NCBI RefSeq assembly: GCF_000196655.1
Contig: NC_014253.1
Span: forward strand, 1,567,423-1,631,422
Reading direction: 5' to 3'
Origin: Methanohalobium evestigatum Z-7303
GTDB taxonomy: Archaea; Halobacteriota; Methanosarcinia; Methanosarcinales; Methanosarcinaceae
DNA: 64,000 nucleotides
The translations under genes were made by a program, and so were the position numbers. Below the pieces are notes generated by a model. That model did not search any database, was not told where the DNA came from, and saw only the letters and a list, made by a program, of their open reading frames with translations. The stretch's first letter is position 1. The number at the start of each line of letters is the position of its first letter. This document shows, one piece after another, positions 19,534-58,111 of the stretch.

Positions 19534-20478
19534 TATTATAAAGTCCTAATGCTTTTATATTATTTACTATGACTGTATAATTTGTATTATTATAAACACC
19601 CAAGTTTATATTGCAAAGACCTGATTCATTTGTTGAATAATCAATACCCTATCTAGAGTCCACTACAGTACATGAATAATTTTTGTAGTTTAATTTATAG
19701 TCGATAACTCAATATTTGTTGCTTATAATTATATCAAAAAACGACGAAATATATTACAAGTTAATAACAAATAATTTGTCCTCAACTATAATAGTAACTT
19801 TTGCATTTTCTACATTTTTTTCATCATTAATTGCTTTGACCGTTAAATTAGATGTATTTTTTACATAATCATTTGTTACATCTTCTATGTTGTACCTTTT
19901 TTGTTTAACACAGAAACATGTCCAAAATATGCACCCCATTCCGAGGTGAAATATGTCTTATTACTGTTAGGATAAGACAAGTTAAATCCAGAATCTGCAA
20001 TTTTCCATTTATTTTTTGATTTTACTTCATTTAATTTAACTTCTGACCAGCGATGGTCATTAATAATTGGTTCCTTTTCTTTTTGTGGTTTTATAAAACC
20101 GTTGATTTTTATTTTTCTGTAGTTCAAATTTGTCCTTTCTGCCATATCTTCAAATATTAATGCTCTTTCTTCGCAAGACCCTTTTTTCCAAAATAAAAAC
20201 CATATAGAATCATTTGATAAATAGCGTAAATGGATTTCCCAATCTTTATCAATTGTATCTGATTTTTTAATGAACTCTTTTTGTTCCCACTTTATGATGC
20301 TTTTTACTTTTTCAGAATCATTAGAGGATTTCTTTATTATGTCCTTGCTAGTTTCTTGCAAATCATGTTCAGTAATATAGAATATATGCAAAGATAGATA
20401 AATTAAAGGGCTTAATATTAGAAATATTAATAAGGAAATTATTATAGCTTTTTTACTACTCTTTTTAAATGATAACAT
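19534..20478 (-). pseudogene. Transglutaminase-like membrane protein, 5' part (frameshifted, TnpB-interrupted)
   Basis: Starts MLSFKKSSKKAIIISLLI with an N-terminal membrane helix. The transglutaminase core has Cys in 'KKGSCEERALIFEDMAERTN', His in 'INDHRWSEVKL' and Asp in 'WKIADSGFN'. The frame breaks in an A6 run near 19898-19903; the next frame continues 'YNIEDVTNDYVKNTSNLTVK', an Ig-like domain. Further frame breaks follow, then 'GIDYSTNESGLCNINLGVYN' and 'NTNYTVIVNNIKALGLYNN' up to the TnpB left end. The 3' end of the gene lies at 18050-18223. This is a peptidase/transamidase-like surface protein that is no longer functional unless a frameshift is programmed. Confidence 0.75.
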
Positions 20479-55301: not shown

Positions 55302-55361
55302 AAATACCTCATTCGAACAATTGCGAACTTTTATATAGAGTGTAAATTATTTATTATTACG

Positions 55362-56099
55362 ATGATTTATGGGAATCGTACAACTCTTTTTTCAAACGGA
55401 AACGGATTTGTTGCATTAAATACCCCGGTAAAAATTAAAGTTTTGGAATTACTCGAATCAGGTCCAAAATCTTTTGATGAAATCGTTAGGTATACAAATA
55501 AAGCAAAATCTACGATATCTGTACATCTCAACGACCTGAGGCAGTACAATCTTATAAAAGAAACATCCGATGATAATGATAAACGCAAAAAAGCCTATCA
55601 TCTAAACTGCCAACTTATTGCATATTCTTAGCAACCACTGGCCAAACACTATCATAATGTCTTACAGGTTTTTGGGTCTGCATTACCTGATGACCGCCGG
55701 TTTTTAAAACACGTATTTCAGGCTTTAAGGTTTGGATTTGAGTCGCATGGTATCGATTATGAACCTGTCATTAAAAACATTGGTAAAGACATAGGAACAA
55801 ATCTGTCCGATAATTTTGAATCGAACAGTTTAAAAGATTTGCTTGATGAAATTGCGGTATTCTGGAGTAAAAACGGACTGGGTGAAATCAATATAAACAA
55901 TATTAACCCGCTTGAGATTGTTATTAATAACTGTTTTGAATGTTGTTCTGTGCCACCTGTTGATAAAAAACTATGTTCTTTCAGTGCGGGTCTATTGGAA
56001 GGTATAATTACCGGCAATACAGGAATAGGGGGCACTATAAAAGAAACTGAATGTCAGGGCAGTGGTCATAATCACTGCATGTACAAAATGATAAAGTGA
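55362..56099 (+). CDS. ArsR-type HTH plus V4R-domain regulator with in-frame amber codon
   Basis: A 245-codon frame with one TAG at codon 90 (55629-55631). Residues 1-89 are a winged helix ('VKIKVLELLESGPKSFDEIV', 'TISVHLNDLRQYNLIKETSD'). After the TAG the same frame continues 'QPLAKHYHNVLQVFGSALPD', then 'GGTIKETECQGSGHNHCMYK', the C-terminal V4R motif. The two halves are clearly one protein of a methanogen regulator family. No intact gene in the window uses TAG as stop, so it may be read as pyrrolysine; a nonsense mutation is the alternative. Its TGA lies at the right end of TnpB copy 4. Confidence 0.7.
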
Positions 56100-56215
56100 A
56101 TTACTCCTCCCTTTTGGGAGGAGCTTCCTGTTTCATAGTTTGTTCTAACGAACACAACTCCACAGGCTCTACCCCTCATCCCGAAGGTGAAATTAGATTC
56201 TGTCTATCCAGTGCG
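56098..56215 (-). ncRNA. Putative omega RNA, copy 4
   Basis: Conserved with copy 2 from 'ACCTTCGGGATGAGGGGTAG' through GAAACAGGAAGC, with a different but equally well paired terminal hairpin. The scaffold may outlive its dead tnpB and be used by the copy-2 protein. The adjoining guide would be antisense to the 3' end of the V4R gene. Confidence 0.5.
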
Positions 56216-57293
56216 AATTTTTTAATATTAACTGATGCGTTGATGTCTCTATCATGTTCCGTTTTGCAGTCAGGACATTCCCATTCCCTGTCTTTAAGTT
56301 CCAAATCCTAATGATAATATCCACATACATGACAGATTTTGCTTGATGGATCGAATCGTCCTATCTTGATGATATTTTTACCATACCATTCTGCTTTATA
56401 TTCCAATTTCTGTACAAAACTACTCCATGAAGAATCGGTTATATGTTGTGCAAGATTATGATTTTTCAGCAGTCCTTTTACATTCAAACATTCCAGTGCT
56501 ACAGCTTGGTTCTCGCTTATCAACCTGGAACTTAACTTATGCTGGAAATCTTCTCTCTGACTGCTTATTTTTTCATGGTACTTGGCTATCTGATGTTTCA
56601 GTTTCCTGTAATTATTAGAACCTTTCTTTTTTCTGCTGAGCCTTTTCTGTAATACCTTTAATCTTTCAATCGAATTTTTCAGGTATCTGGGGTTGCCGAT
56701 TTTTTCACCGTCGGATGTGACAGCGAAATCTTTGATTCCTACATCGACTCCTATAGTATTATTTTGGTCGAATTTATATTTTTGTGGTAATTGTTTGTCG
56801 TCATCGACTAAAATACTGATATAATATTTCCCGTCGGTGTTCTTTTTATAGTCGCAATCCTTTGTTTACCATCAAACCTTCTATGCAGCCTTGTCTTTAT
56901 CCAGCCGATTTTAGGTATGTATACTTTATTATTCTCAAAATCGACTTTATACCATTGAGGAATAGGGAAAGATTGAACAGGGTTTTTCTTGGATTTAAAC
57001 TTTGGAAAACCTGATTTTTCTCTGAAAAACTTGGTGAAAGCATTTTCAAGATTAAGAGTGGCTCCCTGTAATGATTGTGAGTTAATCTCTTTCAACCATT
57101 CATAATCATCTTTTAATACCCTTATTCGTTTGTTCAATTCAAATCTTGATATAGCTTTACCATCCTATTCATAAGATTTGATTTTGTTCTCCAGAGCCCA
57201 GTTGTATATGAACCTACAAGCTCCTATATGTTTTGCTATTAACTCCTGTTGTGTTTGATTTGGATACATACGGTACTTGTAGGCTTTTAACAT
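56162..57293 (-). pseudogene. tnpB: tnpB (copy 4), two ambers and a frameshift
   Basis: Homologous to copy 2 throughout. Lesions: CAG to TAG at 57165-57167 ('KSYE*DGKAIS'), a 1-base deletion near 56828-56833 after 'RTPTG', and CAG to TAG at 56308-56310 ('CGYYH*DLELKD'). The deletion makes it inactive even if TAG is decoded. Confidence 0.9.
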
Positions 57294-57421
57294 ATTACAG
57301 TAATTATTATTTGTCATTATTATATGTTATGTTAAATGTGGTTCAAGAGTGTATATCGCATTCATCTTCCAGCTTCGCAGGGAGTCTTCTGCGATATTTG
57401 GGATAAAAACCGATATTAAAA

Positions 57422-58111
57422 TTATCCATTACCTACAACCACACCAAGGTCAGATATTAAAAGTTTACCTATTTCTGCAACTATTCCCGGACCATCTGTA
57501 TCCTCACGACATACTATTGCATGTTCCATCACACCCAGACGTTCAACCCCGTATATATCCTTGCCGTGCCCTTTCTTTTTAATAGCTGATTTTAATTCCG
57601 AACGGGTTGCTGAATTTGCTATAACTCTATCTGTACTGGATTTTTTCCAGTCCCACCATAGGTCGATTTGTTTTTTTGTAAAGCGTGCTTTTGGATTTTC
57701 TGAATTATCTGTAACATCAACTGATACCGGTAGATAAGGAATAATCCCGAATCTGGATGCAATCTGTTCTACATTACCTGTACCGAGAGGTTTCAAATGG
57801 CTTTGTGGAATTGATAATTCTACACCTACATTAACTAGTATCCTTTCAGATTTAATTGACTGGATGTATCCCCTGTATTCTTTACCGGGTTCAACTTCAT
57901 CCACAGGAGTATTGTATTTACTTACAAGATAATTTGCAGAAAATTCCTCATCTTCACCGGAAAGATCCACCTGAACCCAACCTTCCAGAGTAGCGGATAC
58001 ATCTACGGATACCTCCAGTTCTTTAAGGTCATTATAAATCATATCTTTTATAGAATGAATCGCACGCTCAGTATTTCTGTATATGTGAAGAAGTAGTATT
58101 ACAGACCTCAT
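57422..58111 (-). CDS. DUF2110 family protein
   Basis: 229 residues. 'MRSVILLLHIYRNTERAIHS' opens the family; 'VEPGKEYRGYIQSIKSERI' looks like an S1-type beta barrel and 'RFTKKQIDLWWDWKKSSTDR' is helical. DUF2110 is archaeal and of unknown function, perhaps nucleic-acid binding. Usually next to a wHTH gene, as here (11 bp away). Confidence 0.8.
   Translation of the reverse strand: MRSVILLLHIYRNTERAIHSIKDMIYNDLKELEVSVDVSATLEGWVQVDLSGEDEEFSANYLVSKYNTPVDEVEPGKEYRGYIQSIKSERILVNVGVELSIPQSHLKPLGTGNVEQIASRFGIIPYLPVSVDVTDNSENPKARFTKKQIDLWWDWKKSSTDRVIANSATRSELKSAIKKKGHGKDIYGVERLGVMEHAIVCREDTDGPGIVAEIGKLLISDLGVVVGNG

Follow-up and report, generated by a model that had tools for sequence, protein, structure and literature searches.

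An in-frame TAG codon in msvR of Methanohalobium evestigatum, most likely decoded as pyrrolysine within a full-length redox regulator

The frame at 55362-56099 (plus strand) of the window, by which we mean the whole 64,000-nucleotide stretch of Methanohalobium evestigatum Z-7303 DNA analysed here, is identified by its sequence as msvR, encoding a redox-responsive repressor with an ArsR-type HTH and a V4R domain. It is a single frame of 245 codons whose sole interruption is a TAG at codon 90. We consider it highly probable that this TAG serves as a sense codon, that a full-length MsvR carrying pyrrolysine (Pyl) is made and acts as a redox autorepressor, and that the substitution is near-neutral; on comparative grounds, Pyl is the most likely identity of residue 90. 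The first-pass annotation, made from the letters of the DNA, had already put forward Pyl decoding of this TAG, and the proposal is now well supported by the pyl genes of the host, the same TAG in a sister species, purifying selection downstream and the near absence of TAG terminators.

The model that we favor starts from a Gln codon, most simply CAG, that would have become TAG before the two Methanohalobium species split. The UAG would be decoded as Pyl by the organism's own PylRS and tRNA-Pyl, and it would be tolerated because in this genome TAG is hardly ever used to terminate genes any longer and functions as a sense codon. The product would be a full-length MsvR of 245 residues in which Pyl sits where the HTH joins the linker helix. 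In its reduced form the protein would bind a TTCG-N8-CGAA box that precedes msvR and repress its own promoter, and oxidation of the V4R cysteines would release it from the operator; this redox behavior and operator use are extrapolated from the characterised Methanosarcina acetivorans protein. Most ribosomes would be expected to pass the UAG, and some may stop there, yielding an 89-residue HTH protein.

An open frame of this kind around a TAG is rare. The two strands of the window together contain 1300 TAG trinucleotides, of which only codon 90 of msvR is preceded by at least 89 and followed by at least 155 open codons, and none of 22379 TAGs in shuffled sequence had comparable flanks, so that the layout is not a product of chance. 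With the TAG read as a residue, Pfam detects HTH_5 (residues 22-66, 42.7 bits) followed by V4R (185-239, 40.8 bits) in one frame, the order expected of MsvR, which bears out the earlier description of an otherwise intact HTH-plus-V4R regulator with an in-frame TAG at codon 90. The readthrough protein scores 261.8 bits over residues 10-242 with the NCBIfam MsvR equivalog (NF053755), whose cut-off of 220 bits we used as the threshold for membership; the parts before and after the TAG score 99 and 151 bits, each below it. The three V4R cysteines of MsvR are found as C205, C231 and C239, and the gene is single-copy, with no other match in the genome. The predicted structure (mean pLDDT 84, 69-72 near residue 90) places residue 90 immediately before the helix that follows the HTH. 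A Foldseek search with this model returned, at modest TM-scores, the V4R-type folds of MJ1460 and of the PoxR and MopR sensor domains, while a sequence search of solved structures gave no match. The features are collected in Table 1.

Table 1. Features of the msvR region, in positions of the window.
Feature	Positions	Strand	Basis or remark
MsvR-binding box TTCG-N8-CGAA, likely autoregulatory operator	55312..55327	.	Pattern search; boxes of relatives
MsvR N-terminal part, codons 1-89, ArsR-type winged helix	55362..55628	+	Pfam HTH_5; 99 bits alone
TAG codon 90, inferred pyrrolysine	55629..55631	+	Gln in 25/28 relatives; in the model just before helix 91-106
MsvR C-terminal part, codons 91-245, linker helices and V4R with C205/C231/C239	55632..56096	+	Pfam V4R; dN/dS 0.156
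msvR stop TGA, provided by insertion	56097..56099	+	Sister has MINRY, then TAA
IS200/IS605-type TnpB element (context, outside the mechanism)	56096..57409	-	Empty site in sister; TNB domain
DUF2110 (COG4044) gene, conserved msvR neighbor (context, outside the mechanism)	57422..58111	-	Pfam

A second Methanohalobium species, available as a MAG, bears the identical TAG in an msvR whose protein is 95% identical. As the two assemblies are independent, a sequencing error could be rejected. Beyond the TAG the two genes show 18 differences, a small two-species comparison, which give a dS of 0.124, a dN of 0.019 and a dN/dS of 0.156 (0.323 before the TAG). They fall 4/3/11 on codon positions 1/2/3, and 7 of the 18 are non-synonymous against 79% expected without selection (p = 2e-4, simple binomial). 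No frameshift separates the two species after the TAG. Relatives show no variation at 12 post-TAG residues, and every one of these, C205 included, is kept, as are C231 and C239. The ratio of post-TAG to pre-TAG identity to relatives is 0.73, within the 0.77 ± 0.10 of intact relatives, which argues against relaxed evolution of the second half. Taken together, purifying selection, the unbroken frame, the kept residues and the normal divergence argue that the second half is synthesised within the full protein. Coding constraint past the TAG is what would be expected of a Pyl protein, and the loss of constraint expected behind the stop of a pseudogene was not seen. Conservation of the TAG by itself is weak evidence and not in itself a sign of selection for Pyl, since at a dS of about 0.11 an unconstrained codon often stays unchanged.

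The first-pass annotation had proposed aligning homologs at codon 90 and had named decay in close relatives as an observation that would speak against its reading. At this position 25 of 28 relatives have Gln (CAG or CAA), two have Glu and one has Asp, the sister has TAG, and TAG was found in no other genus among the 28; decay did not appear in the sister, where the part after the TAG is free of frameshifts and under purifying selection. The prevalence of Gln makes a change from CAG to TAG the simplest origin. The mix of Gln, Glu and Asp, together with similar TAGs in unrelated genes, indicates that the replacement of Gln by Pyl is probably near-neutral and without a special regulatory role. 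A near-neutral origin of Pyl codons was proposed earlier (PMC3639795), in a paper whose main text does not name the msvR case. No stable PYLIS-like RNA structure was found after the TAG (z +0.95); such structure is thought to be unnecessary for Pyl decoding (PMC9499178). Other irregular msvR genes were also encountered. One from another member of the Methanosarcinaceae (L025:1540-2235, minus strand) has an early TAA, is without the last two conserved cysteines and is likely a true nonsense case, and in two relatives (L024 and L027) a TAG lies beside the end of msvR (codon 247) with another stop directly behind it.

The genome (2,406,232 bases in two contigs, one of 2,242,317) encodes the PylRS, tRNA-Pyl(CUA) and PylBCD expected of a host that makes a Pyl protein. 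The pylTSBCD set, for which the earlier reading had called, was found in full: pylS, tRNA-Pyl (anticodon CTA), pylB, pylC and pylD are all present, with pylTS and pylBCD at two separate loci, an arrangement reported for M. evestigatum (PMC9499178; also PMC3941956).

Stop-codon use was estimated in 0.49 Mb, about a fifth of the genome, comprising 20 stretches, the window and the pyl regions; genes were called with a simple home-made Markov gene caller, and the counts are approximate. Of 433 called genes, 296 end in TAA and 119 in TGA (415 together), and 18 frames involve TAG. By our reading, 2-3 of the 18 look TAG-terminated with another stop close behind, and the rest are made up of frames with a TAG before the true start, transposon genes and several real in-frame TAGs. 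TAG is thus almost unused as a terminator (at most 2-3 of 433 with the home-made caller), as expected of a Pyl code. The earlier remark that none of about 60 genes ends in TAG is very nearly right at this scale, and fails for one gene in the window, at 19876-20391 (minus strand), where the frame reaches a TAG with a TAA two codons on, so that the TAG may serve as a terminator secured by a second stop.

In-frame TAGs in unrelated conserved genes, also expected of a Pyl code, were found in mtmB (codon 202), which served as positive control, and in three further genes: a gene that we take to be DUF1464-like (L054:10163-11152, minus strand; codon 258), for whose protein Pfam gave no match, and two with the respective Pfam domains, a PyrK-like oxidoreductase gene (L067:18847-19545, plus strand; codon 175) and a CbiO-like ATPase gene (L068:3631-4545, minus strand; codon 76). 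The sister has CAG, CAG and GAG at these three sites, which suggests that TAG is a sense codon drifting in and out at tolerant positions. Constraint continues after the TAG in all three, although only a small number of differences could be counted. Additional in-frame Pyl candidates are a SAM methyltransferase gene (L061:14668-15312, plus strand; codon 40) and a gene for an unnamed protein (L050:13782-14612, plus strand; codon 189). A TrkH-like gene (L060:5480-6229, minus strand) with a TAG at codon 59 has an apparent later frameshift and may be a pseudogene. Contig C1 of the sister MAG (L069) departs from the remainder of the genome in having four genes with an apparent TAG terminator, and it may be of foreign origin or a contamination.

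The MsvR operator motif was defined as TTCG-N7-9-CGAA (PMC3729527), and a box of this form, expected upstream of an msvR gene, is present here as TTCGAACAATTGCGAA. It lies 50 bases ahead of the start codon and is immediately followed by a TATA-like TTTATATA. The sister has its box at -50 as well, and most relatives have theirs at -47 to -57. As the pattern alone is expected by chance about once per window, position and conservation bear the weight, and they point to the box as the likely autoregulatory operator of msvR.

Other readings of the TAG were weighed against Pyl decoding. TAG is a canonical stop and the 3' end of msvR is occupied by an insertion sequence, and both facts could speak for a nonsense mutation with the second half left as a decaying pseudogene; the first-pass annotation had linked such a mutation to TnpB. 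We regard this as very unlikely, as the TAG occurs in two species with purifying selection and no frameshift beyond it, the second half evolves no faster than in intact relatives, and the sister lacks the insertion. The TnpB element sits between ATGATAAA and CCGATATTAA, which are directly joined in the sister; because of a run of A, the exact junction can be placed in more than one way. Judged from this comparison, the element inserted after the species split, later than the origin of the TAG, and its effect on MsvR is confined to the final residues, which are MIK in place of the MINRY (then TAA) seen in the sister. Since the TAG is present in the sister, where the element is missing, the element is not the cause of the TAG, and it was rejected both in that role and as a mark of decay; the dN/dS and the shared TAG largely refute nonsense decay of msvR. 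The tnpB gene is itself broken (56176-56523, minus strand), with a TNB domain in its 3' part according to Pfam, and this zinc-ribbon domain contains an in-frame TAG of its own (56308-56310). That each half of msvR matches its own domain separately would also fit two proteins, one a short HTH protein and the other a V4R protein translated from an internal start. This is extremely unlikely: the first in-frame ATG, GTG or TTG after the TAG is the TTG at 55839, 70 codons on, from which conserved residues of the second half would be lost, and intact relatives have one fused gene. The sister has a GTG 13 codons past the TAG, the counterpart of which is absent in the window.

One could also invoke readthrough by near-cognate or suppressor decoding in place of Pyl. 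We consider this highly improbable, as the cognate tRNA-Pyl(CUA) and all the Pyl genes are present and are known to be required by mtmB, which has an in-frame TAG itself. A different role for Pyl would be a regulatory switch, where Pyl supply sets the ratio of the truncated 89-residue HTH protein to full-length MsvR and so links redox control to methylamine metabolism. Pyl at the junction would then be functional, and growth on methylamines would determine whether the full-length sensor or a sensor-less DNA-binding form prevails. In its favor, the TAG falls precisely where the DNA-binding part meets the sensor part, two species have kept it, and whether a UAG is read or terminates is believed to be decided by Pyl-tRNA and release factor competing for it (PMC9499178). 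We nevertheless think a switch, and with it a functional Pyl at the junction, improbable: the downstream RNA structure is absent, other genera lack the TAG, comparable TAGs in several unrelated genes fit drift, and the known input of MsvR is redox. The methylamine sensing through Pyl supply that had been suggested earlier finds no support; the known input of MsvR is redox state through the V4R cysteines, and the TAG looks near-neutral.

MsvR, Pyl decoding in the Methanosarcinaceae and near-neutral Pyl codons are all already known; what appears to be new is msvR as a well-supported case of an in-frame Pyl codon, one that rests on comparative evidence and not on an open frame alone. With it, a single-copy regulator joins the short list of apparent Pyl genes outside methylamine metabolism, and the view of TAG as an ordinary sense codon in Methanohalobium gains support. 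If annotation takes TAG as a stop, msvR would appear as a pseudogene or as a gene for nothing more than an HTH, and the other genes with in-frame TAGs would be misread as well. If the switch were true, a genetically encoded amino acid would control a transcription factor through its supply.

MsvR has been characterised in M. acetivorans (MA1458) and Methanothermobacter thermautotrophicus, with the same domain order and length as here. The V4R cysteine spacing is identical (C205/C231/C239 here, C206/C232/C240 in M. acetivorans), and the two msvR genes share the operator motif upstream and a COG4044/DUF2110 neighbor downstream, which is MA1457 in M. acetivorans (PMC3729527). Unlike in the characterised proteins, residue 90 is here encoded by TAG and the last three residues are altered by the insertion. 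A TetR-family regulator of M. acetivorans is annotated with an in-frame UAG and, like msvR, has a lone TAG. As with the known near-neutral Pyl codons, relatives of msvR have an ordinary codon at the site and there is no special RNA element; in contrast to them, the msvR TAG occurs in both Methanohalobium species and belongs to a redox regulator present in one copy. An archaeal 'Pyl code' with TAG as a consistent sense codon genome-wide was reportedly described by Kivenson et al. (Science, 2025), and Methanohalobium resembles it both in the near absence of TAG as a terminator and in the in-frame TAGs of several unrelated genes.
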